Positions 47,202 through 62,538 of a stretch of DNA of 64,000 bases are shown piece by piece. This DNA comes from Halichondria panicea (taxonomy: Eukaryota; Porifera; Demospongiae; Suberitida; Halichondriidae). Under the pieces are notes generated by a model. The model was not told the origin of the DNA. It made no database searches and saw only the letters and a list, made by a program, of their open reading frames with translations. How positions within the stretch are numbered: the first letter of the stretch is position 1; each line of letters starts with the position of its first letter. The DNA lies in assembly GCF_963675165.1 (NCBI RefSeq), contig NC_087389.1, forward strand, positions 4,090,830 through 4,154,829, read 5' to 3'. The position numbers and the translations under genes are program-made.

Positions 47202-50200
47202 ATGGGCACGTGCTCATCAAAAAATAGCACTGATGTTGTGCATGCCGTTGTCTCAGTTCAGGCAAGAAAATCATTTTCCAATAAATCTGTGAAAAAAGCC
47301 GATTCATCCTCAATCGCATTCCCCACACCCCCACCTACCCAACAAGTTCCTGATCATCTTGTGGAAAAATCGGACTCATCCTCGAGGACACCCCCGCCTA
47401 CCCAAAAAGTTCTTGATCATCTTGTGGAAAAATCAGACTCATCCTCGAGGGCATCCCCCACACCCCCGCCTATCCAACAATTTCCTGATCATCCTGTAAA
47501 AAAATCAGTCTCATTCTTGAGCGCATCCCCCACACCCCCTACCCAAAAAGTTCCTGATCAACATGTGGAAAAACTTGATTTGTCTGCAAACGCATCTCCC
47601 ACAACTTTACCTACCCCCTACAACCAGATTCTCAAAGCCAATGAAGACTCTAGTTTGAAAAGAGCGCTGTCTCTACCTGTAGTTAGCAGCCGCCAGCTTG
47701 TTTGCTCAGACAATAAAAAGCCGGCTGAACACGTTTTCTCTAAGGAGGACAGTGACATTACACATTCGTATGATGGCAAACTCAGTCCCTTGGTAGTTGA
47801 TCCCGACCCTATAGAAAACAATCCAAATCATTCGGAGGAAGCTTGTCAGGAGCTAGTATCCGCGCTTGTATCTATTGACGAAGAAGCGAGAGAAAAAGTA
47901 CAAACAATTCTTACGAATTGGGAAGAGTCGGAAATCATGTCGACCATCAACGATCATGCTCAAAGTGCCTCAAACCAAACAATTGATGGTGACCTTTCCA
48001 AGTTAGCGTTGTACTTAACAGATGATCTCGGCTATTCAGATCTCGCGAAAGCGTTCGCCATTTACATTTGGATATGCACCAACATTTCAATAAACAAGAG
48101 TATTCGTACGAAGTATGAGACGAAGTACACCGATCATGAATCGTATATCGAAGCCCAACATGTTTTGAAATACGAAAGTTCAAACTATGTCGGGTATTCA
48201 ATTCTCTTTGTTGAATTGGCCAAATTGGCTGGGATTAGAGCCAAGGTGATCAGAGGGGAGATATCTCATGTACCCACTCCAGCGCTACCAGCCGATGAAG
48301 CGAGGAAGTCTACAGCTATTGCTCATACTTGGAATGCGGTGAGTGAAAAGCATATGTGAAGTAGTAGTAGTAATGAATGATACTGTATAATTATACACAC
48401 GTGTAGCCATGCAATGCAAAGAATTGTATTGTTGTTGTTGTTGGATTATCTCCCTTCGTGCATAATTACATTTCTACATATGCACTAAGTGATGTAGGAC
48501 CTTATACATGTACTATGTAAGTAATGTACTAAAAAGTCTGCACAATACTTGCAAACTTCACAGATTACCTAATGGTAAAAACTTTCCGCGTTGGTAGGAG
48601 CATAATTATTTATTAATCCCCTGCAAGTCGAAAACAGTTTATACAAATTGTTTGCCGATTACATAACCTCCACATCTGAGGCAAGGCCTTATATAGTTCT
48701 GCTTGATAACGGTATTTTCACAACATAATCTTCTAAAGATCCATTCTTCACATTTGCATGGATGGGCTCCATGCATGTGGTATGACTTATATGCCAATGT
48801 GCTAAATCTTCTTTGGTTTTGCTCGCTTCTATTCAATGAACAAAATCTGCCACAATAAACAAAACTTGTTATGTAGTTATTGCACTATCGATTCTGTAAA
48901 CTCACCACTTAGGCATCCAGGTGAGCAGACTTATGTAGAATCACACAGACAAACAGACACACTGACCGGCTACTATAACCAGCAGCGCAATTACAGTTTG
49001 CAGTTGCCACGGTTGCATGCATGACTATACTCGAAAAATACAACTGTCGCGGATGGTCTGATATATGGTTTTACTCTTTGTGCAGGTAAAATTGGATGAA
49101 GTCTGGTTCCCTGTCGACTGTACCTTCGGAGCAAACTATTTTGACAAATCGATGGAGGCCAGGTACAACTACATTCGTCACTTTTTTGCCGCCACCCCCT
49201 CCACTTTCATCCTCACCCATTGGCCAAATAAGAAGAAGTGGCAGCTGCTTGAAACTCCTGTCGAACGAGAAGCGCTCGACCCGCTAGTTATTCTCCCCTC
49301 GTGTGCAGCTGGTAGAGGAATACGTCCTCTAACTTGGAGACGATCAATCATAGTAAGCGACGAAAATCAGCACTCAACTGTCGTCAAATTAACAGCCCAT
49401 CCGTCACTGAGAATAGGAGTCAAGCTGCAATACATGAATATGAAAACCTTTAACTATGAGGAGGTCACGAGCAAAAACCTCATCTGTGTTCAGCGGGACG
49501 AAGACGCAGTGTGCATCCGTGCAGCACTTCCTTTTAAGGGGTCATACTCACTACTTCTCACAGTAAATAGGGAAAAAAGGAGAGGATCTCGAGTTCCACA
49601 AGTGTTTCTTTCTTACAACATATGTGTAACTCATATGAGCAAACCATTACAGCAAATCGGCTACCCCAAGGTTTACCAAATGGCTGCATCAGCATACAAT
49701 TTCCAACTACTTTTCTGGAACCAGTCCTCTCATGATTATATTTGTGAGAGTGATTCAGAGCAGCTGAATTTGGCATTCAAGGCAAAGAGAAAAATGACTT
49801 GTTTGCACTTTCTTGTCCCTGGGAAAACTCAACAAACCAGGCCAAAGGATCACAGCGTTGTGTACTACTACAATACCATGGTTGTTACAGAAACAGATGG
49901 TGCTGGCAGTGACCAGGGCCTGCACATGCTCAAAGTGATATTCCCTGCGGAAGGGTGGTGGACCATCTGCTTGAATGGAACGAAAGGCAACCCAAACTTT
50001 CAATCACTAGCCCCCTATGTTACACTGCTGAGCTATCAGGTGTACGCTCATCGAGGAGACTCAACCTCCACCTTCCCCTACATCATTTCACCACAGGTGT
50101 CTGTCTGCTACTTCGATCCGATATCAAGTGTCTCTGAGTCTATTGATATTCCGTTCACAACCACAAAGCCATTGGAATTCCAAGCGTACCTTATGGAAAA

Positions 50201-51623
50201 TATTCCAAATGCTCCTGAGTTGGAGTCCTATGTTCAGATCAAACAAGCTGAGCTCTCCTCAAACCAGTACAGACTCACAGCCATGTTCCCGAAACCTGGC
50301 CAATGGCATGTTCATGTGTTTGCTTGTCCAGAGGAAGATGACGAAGATAACGAGACCGTCCGTGGTTTGTTTTCTCTTCTTGTGAATGTTGAAACGCCTA
50401 TGCAAGGTGCTGTGTCAGTGGCTCTCAGTTTAACAATTGCAGAAAAGATTCAACTCTACTTTCCAAACAAAGGTTACATCAGTTTCCCTGATATCGGCAA
50501 GCCATTGACAATTGACTTTGAATGTGATAAAAACACATCTTTCCAGCATCGAGTGTTTCCAGAAGATCAAGACGAAAAAACTTCAAAAGAGTACAATGGC
50601 CTGTCGCTCTTTACGCACTGTACGTACCTCACTCCACTCAACCGACCAGGTCTTCCCTCAAGCTTTCGTCCGATTCTACTGTCACGACGATCAATAACCC
50701 AACCAGTACTGCCTACTCACCTGTGTGAAATCATCTCTTATCAATTGCATGCCTCCTTTCCTTGGCCCGGAAAATGGACTGTGAAGGTCTTTGCTCAAGC
50801 TCCTGGAAGTTCTGATTACTCACTAGCATTTCACGTTACTATGAAAGTAACCAAGCCCTCGAGAGGAATTTGTTATCCCTTTATCTATGAGGAATTTATT
50901 CAGCTTGGCATTCGCATACCAATAGAATCTATCTGCTACAATCCAATCTGTAGTGAATCAACACAATTTGAGCTCCCTTTCATTGCCCCAGATGATCTCC
51001 AATATACCTGGAATATTGAAGTTGCCGGTAGTGATAGCTGCTATAAGAAACAAGGCTTTGTCTATATATCCGGGAACGCCCTTGCCGGACCTCCAAACAA
51101 CCACTTTCAACTGTCGTTTTCAACCCCTGGCATCTGGAGAGCAGTACTCTTTGCCAAAAAATCTACTCCAGAAGACAGCATACCTGAGGAAGACAGCTAC
51201 AAACCTGTGCTTGAGATTTCCCTTTTGGTCAACACTGTCGACAAAGATGTAGCTTTTCCTGAGATTTACCCAGCCTTCAAAAAATATGGCCTAAGCATTG
51301 CAAAAATGAATATTCCTTTTCTCTCTCGTGTGCAAAATAGTGTACAAAACACTTCTACTACAGTGATAGTTTCGCTGTTCAGTTTGGGTCCGGGTAATGT
51401 GCAATTTTATTGTCGCGTCAAGTGTGCTGAGAAGACCGAAGAAGAAAATCGGTTGTTGTTGCTGCGTAGTCAGATGTTGGAGGACACATATTCTGGGCTT
51501 AATGAAATTCGTGTCGATATATCTGAACCTGGAACATACAAGATACAGCTCGGGGCAAAGTGGAGGGATTGCAAGGAATATAAGTATGAACCTGTGCTCA
51601 CTCATATCGTTAGCAGTATCTGA
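47202..51623 (+). CDS. KY-type transglutaminase-like protein, catalytic Cys lost (1224 aa)
   Basis: Exons: 47202-48338 and 49086-51623. An acceptor (CTCTTTACAG) lies one base before the ATG, so a 5' untranslated intron is likely. The N-terminus MGTCSS fits N-myristoylation at Gly2 plus palmitoylation at Cys4, suggesting membrane attachment. Residues 29-136 are five diverged 21-24-residue repeats rich in Ser and Pro. A transglutaminase-like core follows (about 285-400): AKAFAIYIWICTNIS, then VGYSILFVELAKLAGI, HTWNAV and PVDCTFGAN. The catalytic Cys position, next to VGYS, is Tyr329 (TAT); His and Asp are present. The rest is about five beta-sandwich modules ending in motifs such as FPAEGWWTICL, FPKPGQWHVHVF, FPWPGKWTVKVF and FSTPGIWRAVLF, as in KY/hillarin-type proteins. 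I infer a cytoskeletal scaffold without peptidase activity. Its paralogue at 62539 keeps Cys. Confidence 0.8.
47287..47610 (+). repeat. Coding tandem repeat, five diverged 63-72-nt units
   Basis: Units run GTGGAAAAATCGGACTCATC (VEKSDSSS), then CCCCCGCCTACCCAA (PPPTQ), then GTTCCTGATCATCTT (VPDHL). Length differences between units are multiples of three, so the frame is kept. It forms the disordered N-terminal region of the first KY-type protein and is absent from the second. Confidence 0.9.
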
Positions 51624-52339
51624 GGAACTACACTTTTTTTTTTAGATAGCGACGTATAGGATAGTGTATTGTATTGATTTTCTCTACCAGTAGTACCCTC
51701 GTTCATTTGCATTGTAATTTTAGACTACTTTTGATCATTAACCAATGCGTGGGTGTTGATTTATTTGGAGGTGGAGCTCGTTGCTGCCAGAGAACGGGAA
51801 CCTAATTTGCGGATGGGGGACTGGCCATCACTTGTGGATTGATTTGGGTAGATCGAATTTAAGAACAAAAAATGCAACTGTTGCATGTGTTGCACCTGTT
51901 GCAGCCAAGGAAGGGCGGCTGATTTATACTATGGGCGTGGTTTCCAGTCTAGCAACACTGCACTAGCTGTACTGTGCAGCAGGCAAATCCAACCCGTATG
52001 CAAAGGCGCTATATATAGCAGCTCGGAGTTTAATACTAACCTAGATTCCTTGCTCTAGACTAGTTAATAATAGAAAGTCAATCTGGCTAGCTATCCCACT
52101 AAAATGTGAATCGGATCCTGTGCTCTATGTCAGTATCAGTATCAGAGTTCTCTGCCGGTAATAATGTTTACCATGCAGATAAAGAGTGACTGAACGACGG
52201 TGACAACGGATTATAATAATTATAATGCCACAAATCAAACATAATTATTATGCATGTAATTATGACCATAACTGGGTAAATAGATAATAATAGTATACCG
52301 TACAGATAGTTTTGGCATTATTCGAAAGTTTGGCATTAT
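51624..52339. other. Intergenic 3' of the first KY-type gene
   Basis: No gene seen. At 51741-51800 the sequence CCAATGCGTGGGTGTTGATT, continuing through GGAGGTGGAGCTCGTT, matches the two flanks of the Mutator-like element at 44248-45291. It therefore looks like an ancient duplicate of that locus without the insertion. The end of this stretch is the 3' flank of the minus-strand P-loop/PHD gene. Confidence 0.5.
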
Positions 52340-55300
52340 TCAGTTAATCACGGATAACTTTCCAGCTGGTGGATGACAGCTTGGACATATCCAAACTTGG
52401 CTCTCGAAAGGCAGCTCCTTCAAACCTACACAGGTGTAGTGATACCATCGCCAGCATGAGTCAGCCTCACACCCGACCCACATGCGTTTTCCCTTCTTCG
52501 TAAATTTCCCTCCACATTGCTGGCAGTGTTTCTCGTCTTCTGTATATATACAGTAGCACAAAATATTAATGGGCATGGTGACGTGTGCATGAATAAAATG
52601 TTGCTGTTGAGAAAACAAATTACTGTGTGCATGCATGTGTGCATGATTTTTACTTTCACGCTTGAAAGCAGAGGTACGTTTGCAAAAGCCATTTTTTAGA
52701 TGCTGCTGTCTTGACCAAACCACATGATGGGTGGAGTTGGCTGAAAAAACGCTCTATGAAAAAACGCTCTATGAAAAATGCACCTCTCTACAAAATGCAT
52801 CTCTCTACAAAATTCACCTCTCTAAAAAACGCATCTCTCTACAAAATTCACCTCTCTAAAAAACGCACCTCTGTACAAAACGTCTCTCTGAAAAATGTAC
52901 CTCTCCAAAAATTGCACCACCTATTTTTTAAAACGCACCTCTAATAAAAAGCAGCACCAAAACGCACTAATGCACAGTGGCGTAGCCAGGATTTTGGGAA
53001 GGGCAGGGCTCAAATCAGTTGAGCAGGGCATCACTTTTGCTCAGCAGTCAGCATGCGAATTAGATGGCCCTGCCCACATTTCCATTCAATGACATCCGGC
53101 ATTCTAGTAACTATACGCATGCAGTACAGTGCAGAATACATGGACAGATCACAGCTGAGTAGGAGTTGATAAAGCACAAAGGGGGGGGGGGCTCTAGCCC
53201 CTCAGCCCCCCCTCTGCCTACGCCACTGATGCATGCTGGTGTATAATCATGCATGCATCCTCACATAATTTATATGGACTATGCCGGAAAAGTTACCTGG
53301 TATTTTCTTGAGTTTGATGACCGAGTCAACCACTTCAATAGCTGTGATCTGTTGTTCTGCATGCATAATTTATAATAATGCATTCAAGTTCAACATTGAC
53401 ATACTATAATTATTATAGTCCGGTCACCCTATAATGTACATAATGTATGCATGTATGTACATGTATTATTATAATAATTATAGGGACAAGTACAGTGTCG
53501 CATGCAGTTTGGCCGCAATAGCAAGGTGGCTGCTTTAACAGCCTGCCACATGCCAATTAATTCGTGCCTAGCGAAACAAAAGGTATAATTATATAGAGAG
53601 GTGACCGTAATTCAAAGAGCTGAGAGTCTATACCGAATAGCGCAAAACACATTCTACAAAACGTCCACAAAATGGAACCTCCATTAAAAAATTATTGCTG
53701 TTATTTTGCACAATCGTGAAAACCTATAATTTATATAGATGCATGCATGTATAATTATAGCTGGTCCCGGCCGACCTATCTCACTTACCAGGGGAGACTT
53801 TTTGCTGCAATTCAAGCATTGGGGGATCCTGATGTGCCCCTTGAGTAATGGATGAAATGGAGGTCTTTTTATCTGCATCATGACGACTGCCCTCAAAATG
53901 TTTTTGTAGCTTTCTCGGTTTAATCTTGTGGCAGATTGGAGAAAATGATTGCTTGAGAGCAGCCACAGAATGTTTGTTAATTGGAGTGCTAGTAAAAACT
54001 CCTCTTGGTGTTGGCAGAGCTCTCTCTTTTCTCTTCTTTTGAGGATTAAGTAGTGAGGAATGCTCAATAACGTCGGACCGTGTAGTAAACTCAACTTCAT
54101 CATTGTCCGATGTAATTGGTGTAATCTGTTGAGAGGTGTGTAATTCTGCCTCAGAACTTGAAGGTGATCCATTCAAAGAAAGTGAGAGGTGTGGTCTCGT
54201 GCATCGCTTCTTCTTGGGAGACCTACACAACTTGGCAGGAGAATACAATTTTTTCTTCAATGTAACTGCAGCTGTTTGCCTCACATTCCTGCTCTGGTGA
54301 GCCTCATGTGCAGGAGTTTGTTGAGAGGAGGATGCAGGAATTTGTTGAGAGGAGGATGCAGGAGTTTGTTTCAGTTCAGAGGAGGCTATATTATATATAT
54401 AAATGATGACTGCCATAAATTAATTATTTTGAACATACGGCTTTTAGGGGCGGGGGGGATATTGCCTCATTAATTGAATAAAGAGTTATAGCATTTTCCT
54501 ACATAACCCAATAATTAATTTACCTTTCTCTAGTTTTGCTACTGTGTCGTTGCTGAGAGACGATTTTTGTATCACAAAACTCCGCACGTACACGTTGTTG
54601 GGTGACTGTCTTCCTTTTATTCCCGTCTGCACGTAGGGAAGGTTCACTCCAGGTTTGAGGAATAGCTGTGGAACACTTGGTTTGATACTGCCCCTGAACA
54701 AATTCGTAAGAGCACTCTTAAATGAGGATGACAGGGACTTTCCCATAGATTCATTGTGCTTCCTCAACTGCCCAATGTTGATTGCAAACTGATGAGAGCT
54801 TATATTTCGTACGAAAGTCAACACCTGCATGCATGCAATGCATATACATATAAATTGCATATAATAATTAGTATAAAACTGTTTACAGTATACTCTTGCA
54901 TGTTATATATAGTTGTTGTTAACTCACAGTGCTGGAAGGCTGCTGTGCAACTGATGAACACAGAACACGCTGGATGTCTTCTTTTGTTAAGTCTACTTGG
55001 GCCTCCATAGGTTCCAGCTGATACTTGGTAATGATTGGAACCATTGTGTTTTCGAAGTACTTCCATATCATTTCTTCAGCCTCAGGTTTCAGGACGTTTG
55101 CAACAGACAGTATCTGCATGTATTATTATTATTATAGCAAACCAACTATATACACTGTGTATTGTGGGGGTCTATATATATATACATGAATTATAAGCTT
55201 ATATAATTATATACGCATTTTCACCTTGAAAGTTGCTCCAAGCAACCAAGAGTAAGAAACGAGAAGGCGATGACAGGTGTTATCTGGCATTAGATGCTCA

Positions 55301-57046
55301 ACACGGGTAACAATGTGTTTGAAAAAGTTGTCTGCCTCTGGTGATTTGAAGAATTTCCCCATAGATATTACAACACCTACAGCTTTCCCAGCTTCCTTTG
55401 CCATGATTCGTTTCAACTTTCTGTCAGCATCAACATGTCTTGCTGCTTCAATATGTCCACTTTCCTCAAAAGGAACGAGAACAGCCCTAGTGATGTATCT
55501 ATATAATTATAATTAAGACCTCGTATTATTATAGCCGAAATGTTTGAGGCACTTAAATGTCCTTTACCTATATATATATATATGAAAACTGGGAAAATCA
55601 TAATACCTTGGATCCATGCTTGATAAAGCTTGCAGGCAGGTAGTATTCATTGATGTGAGAAACGTAGTTTTCGGGGCATCAAAAGAAGTAGTAGTGGCTC
55701 TGGTACCTCTATCAAAATGAAAGAGCAGCTTCTCCGATACTTCAGATGGATGAGACGGGTCATCAATAATCATGCCCAATGATGTGAGACTGCCAAACTT
55801 GATAGCTTTAACATCTGTGATAGATTTCACCTTGCTGACAGTATCCATTCCAACCAGGGATAAAGCTGCTTCAGCACTCCGTGTTTTGCCTAGCGAGACG
55901 TTCCCAACAGCAATAGCAGCTGGCACTTGAATTCCAATATCCTGCAGGAGAGAATAGTGGACTGCAAGGACTTCTGCTCCGATCATGAGAGTGGCTGCTG
56001 GAATGTTATGTTGGTACACATTCTCCAAAGCTTCCAACAATGAATGGAATTGTGATGGATCAAGAGATGCCGGGACAGTCGATGCCTCTTTTGAGGTAGG
56101 AAGACTATGTTTATGTAGTACACTGTCTGAAACGTAGTCCCCGAGCCAAATGAAGGGACTAGTTTTTGGATCTACTAGATCCCCATCGGCATTCATGTGC
56201 ACTTGACCGTTGAACACCCAAAGTTCAGAATGTGGTTGCAGACCTACAATCGTTGCCACTTGCTTCGTGTAATGGTGTGGATCTTCAGACTCCGACTTGA
56301 GGCAATAGAAATCCTCCAGCTTTTTCATGAGGTAAGCCTCGAGCTGTATATATAATTATGAGCTAATATTAATTATATAGATTGATAGCTTAATCAATAG
56401 CTACCATATATATAGATAAAATCCCTCTAAAAAATCCTGCCAAATCATCAGCAAGACGTTACAATCTTATAACCTTTGTGGTAAGGATCGTGATGTATAC
56501 ATAACGCAATCTCATAATGTTATCGCAAAATCGCAAAAATTATCATGCATGCTTATATTTTAATATCGGGATTTGCATGCATGTGTGTAATATATAGTTA
56601 TACTTACATTGTACATCAAGACACCTAAATATATATCTTTACCTGTGTGTTTGATGCATGAGTGGTGATTGAAGGATTGTGCACAGAAAATCTTAGTGAG
56701 TCAATGAGAGATCGTCTGCCACCTTTGGTCCAATCATTGGGAAAATATCCTTCTCTATAATAATTATTATAGTGTAATGATGAATATGCTCTATCTATAA
56801 ATGTGGATGGTGACATCTATTATCAGTAACAACGTACCCGAGAGTAGTTCCATCACTGAAGGTGACTGTGCATATATATCCAGACAACGGTCCATCCTCA
56901 TTCTGCACTTCATACGAAAGGTCAATCTTGAAGTTACTCAATGCCTTGAACGATGAGTCCTTGTACACACCAAATCTGTTATTTTTTTCAAAGATATCAA
57001 TGAAATAGTCAACAGTTTGACTTTCACTGTCTGATTCAGAATCCAT
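52340..57046 (-). CDS. DUF927-like P-loop ATPase with C-terminal PHD finger (nine exons, 891 aa)
   Basis: Exons: 57046-56838, 56754-56643, 56343-55607, 55498-55225, 55113-54928, 54824-54524, 54385-53789, 53356-53297, 52539-52340. Phases agree. A Ser/Asp-rich start (MDSESDSESQ) leads to a beta-rich region (GYICTVTFSDGTTLG, EGYFPNDWTKGGRRSLIDSL) and VFNGQVHMNADGDLV. The ATPase core has Walker A GNVSLGKT (about residues 254-261) and a Walker B-like GMIIDD (about 302), followed by ATTTSFDAPKTTFLTSMN. This order resembles bacterial and phage DUF927 ATPases (helicase-like); that link is inference from pattern. A charged, disordered segment follows (about 600-800; Lys/Pro-rich, a local SSSQQTPA repeat). 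The C-terminus is a PHD finger: CQQC, CEADSC, HYTC and CPSC with the Trp of VWICPSC, predicting histone-tail binding. It is head to head with the KDZ-type gene at 57351. Confidence 0.75.
52744..52950. repeat. Degenerate short tandem repeat in an intron of the P-loop/PHD gene
   Basis: About ten imperfect copies of AAAACGCACCTCTCTAC (17-22 bp, variants AAATGCATCTCTCTAC, AAATTCACCTCTCTA) run in the last intron of the minus-strand gene. It is non-coding. Confidence 0.8.
52975..53228. mobile_element. hAT-like MITE, 254 bp
   Basis: Ends CAGTGGCGTAGCCAGGATTT and CCTCTGCCTACGCCACTG, the well-known CAGTGGCGTAG-type hAT terminus, with a G9-10 run inside near 53180. The flanks share ATGCA but not a full 8-bp repeat. 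It is inserted in the last intron of the P-loop/PHD gene. Confidence 0.8.
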
Positions 57047-57350
57047 GGTGGGCCCTATATATCAAGAACTTGATGAAAATTAACTTGGCTTGCTAAACAG
57101 AGTAGACTTGCAGAGGGATTGGCTCGGATTTACAATGTCCTAATAGGTCTAAGTAAGTCTCTATATATATGCCTGCCACATGTTATGGAGGAGCTGCTAC
57201 AGTGATCTCTATAGTGATTTCTAGCTGCCATGTGCACAAAGTGTAATAAACTTTCTGCACTGCACCCTGTCGACCTTGACTGTACTGTATGTAGAGTGAT
57301 GATCCACTAGTCTGTGCATGTATAGATACACTATACATATTGATTCTGAA
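57047..57350. promoter_or_regulatory. Shared divergent promoter of the P-loop/PHD and KDZ-type genes
   Basis: 304 bp lie between start codons at 57046 (minus) and 57351 (plus). The region carries CTATATATAT near 57160 and TATAGATACACTATACATA near 57320. The close head-to-head layout implies joint expression. Confidence 0.5.
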
Positions 57351-60198
57351 ATGGCTGCCAGTAAGCGTCCCAGGTATGACCCAAGTGTTGCAGAAGCCAC
57401 TGCTAAAGCGAAGGTGTCCCAGGCAAAACAAATGGAGAGTCTTACCACTGAGATTGTTCCAGCTATTGTCACTGCTGCCAAACAGTTACTCGGTAAAGGA
57501 AGTAAAGTGTCCACCGAAACGTTTCGGTTGGCACCTAAAGTTGCACAGATACTTCTTGTTGCTGACATCGGACTCCAGAAGTGCATGCAACTGATGTATG
57601 TTACGAAGAAGGTGCCTGTGAATGTGCCTAACAGGACTAAGGTTGTGTGTTCACTGATGGATCCTAACTACTGCATCCATGAAGACAGATGCAGAGTGTA
57701 CATAGACATCATTGAAACTTGTGTGGATGCACCTGTGTTTGACAACACACATACTAGTGACAGCACTCTGAACCACATTCCCAGGTATGTTATAGGGATT
57801 GCGTGCATGCATGTTTATAATTAGCCCGTTCCCAGGCCGAGTTTTCATATCAAATTGGCATCGCACTACTATATAATTATGGCAATGAGTTGTTTCCACC
57901 GGTACAACTTTAATTTGCCGGTTTTAAATTTCCAAAATAATTATATTTAGTTATAATTATTGTATACTCATGTATGCATGCTGACCCAAATCCAAATATG
58001 TATGTGCAGGTTTCTCACTCCTCCCGTTAATAGCTGCATTAATGACAGCTGTCGTATAAGTGGGCATGCAGACTCACTCATAAGTCATCACGACTCAACA
58101 GTTGTCACCGTATATTCTCTATCTGGTCCTGAAATTGGTGTCAAGCATGCACTAAAATGTCGAAATTGCAACTACATATATCACTATTCAGCGTATGGTC
58201 GGAAAACAAGTATCGGTGAAAAGTTGTACAATCAACCTAGAGATTTGGTTGAGGTTTCGGATGTGATCTATTGCGAGAGGGAATTGTACGAACTTTTCTG
58301 CAGCTTGAGGTATATAAGTTATATAATTTATGTGTATATTATAAGAATAACCACACACAGCTTACATTGCTGGGTATCTTTTTCGGGATTCAGCGAATCA
58401 TACACAGAATTCTCAATGAAATCGTGTAAGCAACAAATGTATATGCAAGCTTGGATGAAAAACAGAAAAGGTATATTTATACTATACTTTATAGTCTTGT
58501 CTGCTGCATGTATGATCTGCTGCCTGCTGTGTATTTTTATTACAAAATGCATATTATGATGTTTTCATATACTGCATGTTCATTGAATTTATATATAGGT
58601 TCACCTCATGAATTGACACGCAAAGCAGTGTCACAAATGTTCTACAATGGAGAGCTTGAGGATGAAGCAAGAAATGGGCACCTCCGTCCTGATGAAATGA
58701 TAGTCCACTTGAACAGTGACAAGCTGGAATACATGCAATACATTGTCGAAAAGCAATGCAGCAGTATGTACCAGCATGTCCCTAGAAAAGGGTGCATTGA
58801 ACGAGGTATGCATGCATAAGAAAATGTTGTTCAATTGACCAGTTGCATAATTATAACAGGTTGTGGCAAGTGTTGGTCCATTGATGGCAACTGGAAACTT
58901 TGTTTCCCTCACTGCATGTTTCCTGTCTTGTGTAAAGTTCCTAGTATGCCACTGCTGAACTTTCCAAGTGTATGCGTTAAGCAGCCCAGAGCAAACAGTG
59001 CTTTCTGCATTGAACATCACTCGAAAGCGGAATCGCTCAGCTATCCAACAGATGTGAGAGGCTTCCTTGGTTACTGTGGAGCGAAGAAATCAGCTGGTAT
59101 ATATATAGATTGAAGTCCTATATTATATATATATGCACGTGCTCTATTTATTATGCCCGGCATGCATGCAACTTGTATGTATTTATAGACTGTGCAGTGA
59201 TTCTTCCCAATGAAAATCCGGTACTCACTGATGTCATGGATTCAGTGTCTGTTCAGCAAGAAAATGAGCACATACAGGAAACCATGGAAGTCATCTCTGC
59301 CGCTTGCACAGAGGAATCTGACAGTCTATTGAAATCTCAAGGTTTGTTATGTGCATGCATTGATATGCATGTATATATAATACTCTTATTAACTCCATAT
59401 TTGCAGGAGTACAAGACTTTGCTCGAGAGTTCCCTTCTGTTGCTGTAAGCATCTCTAGTTGTGAAGAAGACAAGAGTGTGATTCAGTGCAGAAAAGATCT
59501 AGGGGAGCGAAAAAAGATTCAGCTGTGGAGTAGAGGACATGTATTTCTTGTGCGCCCCTGCGGACATATTGAGTTTTGGAGAACAATCTATCGGTAAGTT
59601 CATGCTGCATTGCATAATTATATAATTATACGCATGCTGTTGTGCTTGATGTTATAAATGCATGCAGGTCTGAATCACCCTCTCAAGTATTCTTGATTGT
59701 GATTGTCTGGCTCTATCAGACTCTGAAGGACGTACCTCCAGACAAATGGGGAGAGATTATACTTGCTTATGACAATATGTGCCAGCTTGATAGTCTCCGT
59801 GCAGCAAAACAACCCCTTGCACTGCCAAAACCATATGACCTAATGTGGCAGAAAATCACCAAGGTATATATAATATATATAATTATCATGACATAATTAC
59901 ATACATGCATGCATGCATGCAGGTTATTGATGATTTGCACATTAAAAATCATGTACGAACAGACTGTCAGACAACTTACCATCCTTCCAAGGTTCGAGAA
60001 TTGAACCCTCTACTTAACCTCATGACAGCAGAGCAAACATTTGCTTGGATTTCCAGATACAAGCGTATTCTGTGTAGCATGAACAAACTTCATCATCAGT
60101 TTTTCTTACACAGAATTGTATACAGGAGAAACAGATATACTGAGTGGTGCATTGACACTGGTAGAAAGGTTCTTCTCCCTGTGAACGTTTCTAAGTAG
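57351..60198 (+). CDS. CxC5/CxC6-KDZ transposase-like protein (nine exons, 688 aa)
   Basis: Exons: 57351-57784, 58010-58309, 58394-58470, 58599-58805, 58860-59096, 59189-59341, 59407-59593, 59668-59863, 59923-60198. Phases agree. The N-terminal part has a Cys cluster (LKCRNCNYIYHYSAYG, after VNSCINDSC) followed by AYGRKTSIGEKLY. This resembles the CxC5/CxC6 clusters associated with KDZ (Kyakuja-Dileera-Zisupton) transposases. A second Cys/His-rich segment follows (GCGKCWSIDGNWKLCFPHC, then FCIEHH, then GFLGYCG). The C-terminal part has FLVRPCGHIEFW, LAYDNMCQLDSL, VIDDLHIKNH and MTAEQTFAWISRYKRI, which recall the second Asp, the His and the Glu-bearing helix of an RNase H-type transposase. I cannot place the first catalytic Asp with confidence. 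It is either an active element protein or a domesticated one. Confidence 0.65.
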
Positions 60199-60709
60199 AT
60201 ATAATAATTATTGCACACGGTAATTAATGCCGGATATAATAATAAATGCAAGCAGTGATAATTATTATTGATGATGTTGACACCACAGTAAAAAATGCGT
60301 GCATGCATGACTGAAAGGATGCATGCATGCATGCATGGTATAGCTATATATATACATATCTAATTATGTGTATGACTATAATTATATAAATGAGATATAA
60401 TTATATAAATGAGATATAATTATATAGCATGCATGCATGCATGTATATTAAATAGCTATAATTATATATAATTATAATTATAGTCTCCACATGCATGCAG
60501 TCAGTATTATAGTTCAGAGGGTCCTCCACAGCTTCTATATACATGTACGTATATATATGCCGTCATGCATGCATGTTCTCTCGCAGCACAACCAACTCTC
60601 TGCAGTGCATGCATGCATGGGAAAGAAATTATTAACATAACTTGTAATTCAGTATAATGCAACATAATTATTATAATTATGCAACAGAACGTATACATAC
60701 AGTGCAACA

Positions 60710-61640
60710 TGCAGATGCAACAGATGCAACGGTGCAACAGATGCAACAGGTGCAATTAACGGTGCAACAGGTGCAACGGTGCAACAGATGCAACGGTGCT
60801 ACAGATGCAACCGTGGAACAGATGCAACAGATGCAACAGATGCAACGGTGCAACAGATGCAACAGATGCAACAGATGCAACGATGCAACAGATGCAACGG
60901 TGCAACAGATGCAACGGTGCAACAGATACAGCAGGTGCAACGGTGCAACAGATGCAACAGATGCAACGGTGCAACAGGTGCAACGGTGCAACAGGTGCAA
61001 CGGTGCAACAGATGCAACGGTGCTACAGATGCAACCGTGGAACAGATGCAACAGATGCAACAGATGCAACGGTGCAACAGATGCAACAGATGCAACAGAT
61101 GCAACGATGCAACAGATGCAACGGTGCAACAGATGCAACGGTGCAACAGATGCAACGGTGAAACAGATGCAACGGTGCAACAGATGCAGCGGTGCAACAG
61201 ATGCAACAGATGCAACGGTGCAACAGGTGCAACGGTGCAACAGATGCAACGGTGCTACAGATGCAACCGTGGAACAGATGCAACAGATGCAATGGTGCAA
61301 CAGATGCAACAGATGCAACAGATGCAACGATGCAACGATGCAACAGATGCAACGGTGCAACAGATACAGCAGGTGCAACGGTGCAACAGATGCAACAGAT
61401 GCAACAGATGCAACGGTGCAACAGATACAGCAGGTGCAACGGTGCAACAGATGCAACAGATGCAACGGTGCAACGGTGCAACAGATGCAACGGTGCAACA
61501 GATGCAACGGTGAAACAGATGCAACGGTGCAACAGATGCAGCGGTGCAACAGATGCAACAGATGCAACGGTGCAACAGATGCAACAGATGCAACGATGCA
61601 ACAGATCTCACGTGCAACAGATGCAACGGTGCATGCAATG
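60710..61640. repeat. Minisatellite of 8-9-bp units, about 0.93 kb
   Basis: The array mixes TGCAACAGA (9 bp) and TGCAACGG (8 bp), with variants TGCAACAGG, TGCTACAGA, TGGAACAGA and ATACAGCAGG. Higher-order blocks recur, for example CGGTGCTACAGATGCAACCG at three places (about 60789, 61018, 61249). Stop codons are rare in several frames on both strands, so long open frames of Gln/Met/Arg/Cys/Asn type appear; these are not genes. Confidence 0.97.
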
Positions 61641-61658
61641 CAAGTGATCATGCGTGGA

Positions 61659-61789
61659 CAGAGGAGGCGCGGTGCAGCTCAGGCAATTAGTAAACAATAA
61701 TAATATTATCCGCCCACGTCGTATGTTTTTGCTGAGAGTAATCAAAGGCTAATTACTTGAGCTGCACCGCGCTTGTCGGACCTCCTCTG
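61659..61789. mobile_element. hAT-like MITE copy, 131 bp
   Basis: Inverted ends CAGAGGAGGCGCGGTGCAGC and GCTGCACCGCGCTTGTCGGA followed by CCTCCTCTG, with direct repeats ATGCGTGG at 61650-61657 and 61790-61797. It is the same family as 24657-24798, including the single extra base between the left duplication and the element. Confidence 0.8.
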
Positions 61790-62538
61790 ATGCGTGGGCT
61801 TAGGCTAAGTCTTAGCCTCGATTCCCGAACGGCTATACGCTCTAAGTAATCGAGGCTACTTAAGTACCTCGATTACCAGGCCGCACTAGCTAGTGGGATG
61901 GATAGCCTCGAATCCTTGATTATACAGCCACAGTAATGGCGATCCCATGCAACGTGCTACTGTTGCATTTATGTGCGTACATAATTCGTGTGCCCATATC
62001 ACGCCATATCTACTGGCCATGCCAGTGAAGGAATTCTAGTGTAGCATTTAATACACTTGCACAATTCATTTCTTATTCTCTGAGGTGCACTGAAGTCTGC
62101 TATCTGAAGTCTGCTATCTGCTATCTGCTATCGATACGTGACAACGCTTTCAAAGCTCGCAGGATTCATATAGCCCTAGGTGAGTGCATACCAATGATAT
62201 CTATGCATTGGTGCAATGTCGGACTGAAAGTATAGCTAGTTAGAGAGTGTCACTGTGTTTATGAGCTGTACCAGCTCTAAATCTAGCTATATAGATGATG
62301 GTGATGTGATATAGATATATATGTGATATCTAGCATGCATTGTTTATAATAAGTTTATCTATAAAATAATTATTAATTAAGGCTTAGCTTTGTTTCATTT
62401 TGCTTTGATTTTGTTAGCTCTCTGGTAACTATGGATAAGGTGTATAATTGATCCAACCAAGACTGCATGGGCACGGATTTTTTGATTTGATGTGCACAGC
62501 ATGTGAAAACCTCTGTATAATAATATCTTTCCTGCAGA

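Follow-up and report, generated by a model that had tools for sequence, protein, structure and literature searches.

A complete two-gene DNA transposon of the sponge Halichondria panicea encodes a candidate KDZ-type transposase and a putative helicase-type ATPase with a PHD finger

Why should a gene for an ATPase with a PHD finger and a gene for a transposase-like protein lie back to back in a sponge genome? The question is raised by a 64,000-nucleotide stretch of Halichondria panicea (C13:4090830-4154829; hereafter, the window), for which a preliminary description had reported two multi-exon genes with starts 304 bp apart and had suggested either a two-gene mobile system or a domesticated derivative. 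Both genes, here called A (ATPase) and B (transposase), are present and intact. Our searches of the 131-Mb genome revealed that the pair makes up the coding part of a complete, mobile DNA transposon; target-site duplications (TSDs), common ends, multi-copy relatives, and a recurrent pairing of the two genes all support the mobile-system interpretation. The interval first assigned to the pair, 52340-60198, covers the coding part, but the element itself occupies 51829-62012. Its borders, the TGCAAC array that belongs to it, and the pairing of the ATPase with transposases of Mutator-like elements (MULEs) were absent from the preliminary description. The reading that we favor, with slightly better than even confidence, is a Kyakuja-Dileera-Zisupton (KDZ)-type cut-and-paste transposon with a DDE transposase and an accessory ATPase helicase, the PHD finger of which would dock to nucleosomes bearing histone H3 trimethylated at lysine 4 (H3K4me3).

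51829-62012: complete two-gene DNA transposon, 10,184 bp, with the ends 5'-CACTTGTGGATTG...CACGCCATATCTA-3'; six deletion derivatives break at the same bases, and the empty site of one of them is also present in the genome
51821-51828: left copy of the 8-bp TSD, CTGGCCAT, a perfect match to 62013-62020
62013-62020: right copy of the 8-bp TSD, CTGGCCAT, a perfect match to 51821-51828
52340-57046, minus strand: gene A, ATPase and PHD finger, 891 residues, open spliced frame of 9 exons
57047-57350: 304-bp spacer between the divergent start codons of the gene models, presumed shared promoter region
57351-60198, plus strand: gene B, putative CxC5/KDZ-type transposase, 688 residues, open spliced frame of 9 exons

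The borders of the element were established through end-sequence searches and copy comparison. Deletion derivatives on C1, C2, C6 (two), C9, and C17 start and stop at the equivalents of window positions 51829 and 62012. A perfect 8-bp TSD is present at six of the seven loci of the element family, namely the window and five derivatives, the C1 derivative being the exception; as such a match is expected by chance at only about 1.5e-5 per locus, the duplications are not fortuitous. The C9 derivative lacks the equivalents of 54426-59934 and 60063-60715, which hold ATPase exons 1-6 and transposase exons 1-8. It is flanked by TCTACACA twice, whereas the uninterrupted C7 counterpart (L075) has a single TCTACACA and represents the empty site. 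This derivative sits inside a gene of another transposon, the MULE-ATPase element of C9 (L073/L074), as a clean nested insertion. The derivatives encode neither whole protein, so their movement must have been driven in trans. The window element itself is inserted 198 bp past the stop codon of a KY-like gene, a large exon of which lies at 49062-51623 (Ig-like_KY, 3.6e-27).

Three further near-identical copies of the element, A, B, and C on C1, share 97-99% DNA identity with the window copy and lie in segmental duplications adjoining another KDZ-ATPase pair. All three have a common stop at ATPase codon 205, and their transposase gene carries frameshifting indels in copies A and C and is mostly lost in copy B, leaving the window copy as the only fully intact one of the four. 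We initially placed the left border at 52229 on the basis of these copies. This was wrong, as they are truncated and segmentally duplicated, and the derivatives gave the true ends. Comparing the window copy with the C1 copies by the ratio of nonsynonymous to synonymous substitution rates (dN/dS) was uninformative because of the common stop and the frameshifts in the C1 sequences. The segmental duplications at C1 15.6-17.2 Mb (L011/L005, L006/L012, L007) contain two distinct KDZ-ATPase pairs, arranged in tandem with a common orientation, in which the copies of the window's family (sub-1) are decayed. Two other observations concern relatives of the element. An isolated stretch at C8:4621524-4621835 (L055) is 95% identical to ATPase exon 6 and may be a fragment or a further derivative, and left termini CACTTATGGATTGATTTGGG, each preceded by CGTTGCACCTC, occur at the more diverged loci C5:4108735 (L100) and C16:3413245 (L101), possibly marking another subfamily.

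These data bear on the view that the locus is a domesticated host gene pair that merely resembles a transposon, for which one could cite the single fully intact copy among four and the decay of the C1 copies. The exact ends, the perfect TSDs of the window and five derivatives, the empty site, and the existence of divergent families with the same layout oppose it, and there are multiple relatives with common ends and TSDs. The domesticated derivative offered in the preliminary description is thus disfavored; the TSDs refute domestication as the sole explanation, and we regard it as extremely improbable.

In agreement with that description, we found no terminal inverted repeats (TIRs) at the ends of the element (51829-62012). 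Instead, besides the perfect 8-bp TSD, the element has TGCAAC motifs in inverted orientation about 44 bp inward of both ends.

51873-51903, minus strand: TGCAAC-type motifs close to the left end, in inverted orientation to the right array (repeat search)
60712-61633, plus strand: tandem array of TGCAACAG/TGCAACGG units (Tandem Repeats Finder, motif count)

On the right side of the element, TGCAAC occurs 92 times between 60680 and 61640, and the C9 derivative keeps a comparable array. Two other repeats were seen within the borders. One, roughly 125 bp long, is nested within the right end (61665-61789), is partly palindromic, resembles a miniature inverted-repeat transposable element, and has more than 30 further copies in the genome; the other, in the final intron of gene A (52742-52918), consists of tandem repeats of 15, 17, and 34 bp in a stretch that varies between copies.

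To which transposase family does gene B belong? The preliminary description had noted cysteine clusters and a KDZ-like C-terminal region in its product.

57351-57784, 58010-58309, 58394-58470, 58599-58805, 58860-59096, plus strand: gene B exons 1-5
59189-59341, 59407-59593, 59668-59863, 59923-60198, plus strand: gene B exons 6-9
58010-58309, plus strand: CxC5 cysteine cluster, residues 145-244 (Pfam PF18718, 1.1e-10, 42.1 bits, cut-off 26.9)
58860-59096, plus strand: exon with the first putative catalytic Asp (DGNW), conserved in the sub-2 and sub-3 paralogues
59668-60198, plus strand: exons with the putative second Asp (YDNMC), HxxxH...C, and Glu (AEQTF) of a KDZ-type core, conserved in paralogues of 47-50% identity

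The cysteine clusters correspond to a confident CxC5 match. The C-terminal assignment held in part: paralogues with 47-50% identity keep DG.W, YDNMC, H...H...C, and GEQTF or AEQTF, giving the Asp-Asp-Glu order of KDZ transposases, but the Pfam KDZ core (PF18758) matched neither gene B nor sub-2 or sub-3, though it matched many other KDZ loci of the genome. An hhalign comparison of the gene B family with canonical KDZ proteins of the same genome was weak (E = 0.001, probability 21%; MULE control E = 0.46) and collinear at the YDxxC, HxxxH, and Glu motifs. Among known KDZ elements, Dileera makes an 8-bp TSD, and Kyakuja has a 7-bp TSD, CA..TG ends, and no TIR (PMC12730594). The sponge element resembles this superfamily in its CxC5 cluster, Asp/Asp/Glu order, 8-bp TSD, 5'-CA start, and lack of a TIR, and for these reasons we call gene B a probable divergent CxC5-bearing KDZ transposase. 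The element differs from the superfamily in a right terminus of TA rather than TG, in a core that escapes PF18758, in a second gene that encodes an ATPase-PHD protein instead of TET/JBP, and in its large TGCAAC array.

The origin of gene A was less obvious. Its frame, like that of gene B, is open throughout, and all 16 introns of the two genes are of the GT-AG type.

57046-56838, 56754-56643, 56343-55607, 55498-55225, 55113-54928, minus strand: gene A exons 1-5
54824-54524, 54385-53789, 53356-53297, 52539-52340, minus strand: gene A exons 6-9
55225-56343, minus strand: ATPase core in exons 3 and 4, with Walker A (GNVSLGKT), Walker B (IIDDP), sensor-1 Asn, and an Arg after the sensor
52340-52539, minus strand: C-terminal PHD finger exon (Pfam PHD; PDB matches)

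Eight paralogues from the same genome align over the ATPase core, including Walker A, Walker B (DDP in most), the sensor-1 Asn, and, where covered, the later Arg. These motifs are invariant or conserved among them and largely kept in the helicase module of a plasmid primase-polymerase (Prim-Pol) of the cyanobacterium Gloeothece; the paralogue alignment offered no stretch conserved enough for a motif scan. The core had been described as DUF927-like, and its P-loop order and character support this, with DUF927 (PF06048) as the top Pfam model in four of the eight paralogues (best 1.8e-4). However, DUF927 stayed below the curated cut-off of 22.6 where bits were shown (15.6 for the MULE-linked ATPase and 16.4 for the C15 paralogue), and gene A itself gave no PF06048 match in the Pfam scan. 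Further paralogues with a strict Walker A and a DDP box are present on C12 (L078), at C1:5.24 Mb (L079), at C10:4.196 Mb (L080), and at C1:4.68 Mb (L081). A partner was identified only for the C12 paralogue, a MULE; those of the other three may be other transposases.

Searches with tblastn matched the Gloeothece Prim-Pol (1e-6) and a toprim-type protein (primase-helicase) of a Vibrio phage, located in a replication cluster (9e-6). A paralogue (A1) profile scored 76.9 bits against the helicase half of the Gloeothece protein and 57.7 bits against its relative from Nostoc, also a cyanobacterium, and hhalign aligned the Gloeothece helicase module over 374 columns (residues 30-447 of the window copy) with a probability of 99.3% and E = 1e-20. 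The Gloeothece module retains the Walker A Lys, and its Walker A glycine is non-canonical. The homology covers the entire ATPase module, its Walker A, Walker B, and sensor 1 included, and places gene A with the DUF927-type, Prim-Pol- or primase-associated helicases of mobile elements. A scan of our prokaryote and virus collections with the Gloeothece module returned no confirmed relative. In mobile-element primases, DUF927 proteins and their relatives take the place of known helicases; they are predicted replication helicases, one of them proven biochemically (PMC5862659). We conclude from this homology that a eukaryote captured the gene A ATPase as a helicase module of prokaryotic mobile elements; a DNA-motor or helicase activity, and the transposition step that it would serve, are what we infer. 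Compared with the Prim-Pol/DUF927-type helicases, which occur on plasmids, in phages, and in genomic islands, its whole core, including the DDP box, is collinear with the Gloeothece and Nostoc plasmid proteins. Unlike these helicases, gene A has no primase domain, is spliced, bears a PHD finger, and is the partner of DDE transposases.

Relatives of this kind, fused to Prim-Pol or toprim primase domains, raise the possibility of replicative transposition, in which the helicase would unwind the strand-transfer intermediate or start copying, in the way its relatives from plasmids and phages act during replication. Dispersed deletion derivatives and near-identical copies would be compatible with copying, but no domain of a primase or polymerase turned up when the element was scanned with Pfam, and clean 8-bp TSDs are equally expected from cut-and-paste. 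We consider this route very unlikely.

The PHD finger at the C terminus of gene A, as first described, was recovered by Pfam at 1.8e-4, slightly below the cut-off, and more clearly in PDB, where the nearest structures were, in order, TAF3 (3e-8), a KDM7 homologue, ING3, ING1, and BPTF, with ING4 and KDM5 also matched. The PHD fingers of TAF3, ING proteins, and BPTF read H3K4me3. The zinc ligands and the aromatic residue of the WYH motif are present, and together with the known readers as nearest structures they assign the finger, by sequence, to the H3K4me3-reader class. It may steer the ATPase to active chromatin or H3K4me3 nucleosomes. Among the paralogue loci examined, the PHD finger is confined to the window's family, and none was found with the MULE-linked ATPase; therefore, it is the ATPase core that the families have in common, with the PHD finger as an extra.

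A reader of this class could also belong to a counter-silencing factor that opens or remodels chromatin on the element for its own expression, a role comparable to that of TET/JBP in fungal KDZ elements. Fungal KDZ and other transposons do carry DNA-modification cargo, with TET/JBP as accessory genes common to several superfamilies (PMC12730594). The sponge ATPase resembles TET/JBP as one epigenetics-related accessory gene found in more than one transposon superfamily, but it is an ATPase rather than a dioxygenase and is found in an animal rather than in fungi. As no remodeler-type (SNF2) domain turned up in the Pfam scans and the relatives of the ATPase are replication helicases, counter-silencing appears quite unlikely.

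Is the pairing of the two genes peculiar to this locus? The search for pairing covered a single eukaryotic genome, that of the sponge, in which both genes occur together at other loci and in other families. All eight CxC5 loci over the cut-off have an ATPase relative at most 6 kb away. Six of the pairs are divergent (the window, C8, C3, and C1 at 8.8, 15.67, and 16.95 Mb), and two are tandem, with the ATPase downstream of a sub-3 KDZ gene (C1:9.049 Mb, L036; C7:4.144 Mb, L021); some of the C1 pair loci duplicate each other and are not independent. When every CxC5 match is counted, 13 of 19 have an ATPase relative, the remainder being weak matches. The pairing also extends to MULEs. The sub-4 ATPases, 31% identical to gene A, are present in seven copies of 99-100% DNA identity on C2, C7, C8, C9, and C10, and at each of the seven loci a MULE transposase (PF10551, 4.7e-11, 43.4 bits, cut-off 27.6) is divergent to the ATPase. 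The distant ATPase on C12 is likewise divergent to a MULE, giving eight MULE loci in all. The C9 MULE-ATPase transposon also has an integrase-like open frame directly beyond its ATPase. These MULE transposons thus share with the window element the ATPase family and the divergent transcription, but their transposase is of an unrelated superfamily and no PHD finger was found with them. Since the same ATPase family stands beside both KDZ and MULE transposases, it is an accessory gene common to two unrelated transposase superfamilies.

A shared helper that serves unrelated DDE transposases also fits our main rival explanation, that the ATPase is a target selector like MuB, TnsC, or IstB. It would form an ATP-bound filament or ring on chromatin, use the PHD finger to pick nucleosomes, and recruit the transposase without unwinding. 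The bacterial DDE transposons Mu, Tn7, and IS21 use AAA+ partner ATPases, and the combination of a DDE transposase with a partner ATPase is what the sponge element has in common with them. PMC10045372 cites IS21 as such a system. The fusion of a PHD finger to an ATPase is also the layout expected of a targeting factor. Nevertheless, no paralogue scanned had a Pfam match to the TniB, IstB, TnsC, or MuB-type ATPase families, so that the bacterial partner ATPases are of other families, and they have no histone reader. In addition, the sequence relatives of gene A are primase-helicases, and no PHD finger accompanies the MULE-linked ATPase at the loci examined. We therefore judge a target-selector role unlikely, though it is the strongest of the alternatives.

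In the favored reading of an accessory helicase, gene B would be the DDE transposase that cuts and makes the 8-bp target duplications, presumably binding the TGCAAC motifs close to either end through its CxC5 cluster. Gene A would most likely act as a ring-shaped DNA translocase or helicase on the transposon-transposase complex, where it would open the ends or clear the strand-transfer product. Its PHD finger would dock the ATPase on H3K4me3 nucleosomes and so bias insertion toward open chromatin. Several observations weigh against this reading. The restriction of the PHD finger to the window's family means that chromatin docking cannot be the conserved function. Five of the seven sub-3 KDZ loci have no detectable ATPase, and many KDZ and MULE loci of the genome lack one, so that neither KDZ nor MULE transposition generally depends on the ATPase. 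Finally, neither Pfam nor PDB nor a fold prediction gave the ATPase a confident assignment: PDB searches with the single ATPase and with the paralogue profile gave nothing significant, and the sole fold attempt, a single-sequence AlphaFold model of ATPase exon 3 alone, was worthless and discarded (mean predicted local distance difference test score of 33).

Taken singly, KDZ transposons, MULEs, and mobile-element helicases have all been described before. The open literature that we searched, Repbase lying outside that search, contained no description of a KDZ or MULE transposase paired with an ATPase or ATPase-PHD protein. The helicase of AcademH is of another superfamily, and its transposase is Academ. 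As cited in PMC10045372, AcademH is a eukaryotic DNA transposon carrying a helicase, and to this extent it resembles the sponge element in having a helicase beside a transposase.

Most eukaryotic cut-and-paste transposons are, to our knowledge, thought to need the transposase alone. The presence of a plasmid/phage-type helicase beside two unrelated transposases suggests that animal transposons have ATP-dependent helpers, which move between them as modules. More tentatively, and with well under even confidence, the captured prokaryotic replication helicase might be an obligatory, exchangeable partner for KDZ and MULE transposases, fused in one lineage to an H3K4me3 reader; this would amount to ATP-driven, chromatin-guided transposition in an animal, with a logic like that of Mu and Tn7. 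The PHD-fused ATPase offers a direct test of histone-guided insertion, and the exact ends, intact genes, and non-autonomous copies of the element make the questions of helper and targeting testable.

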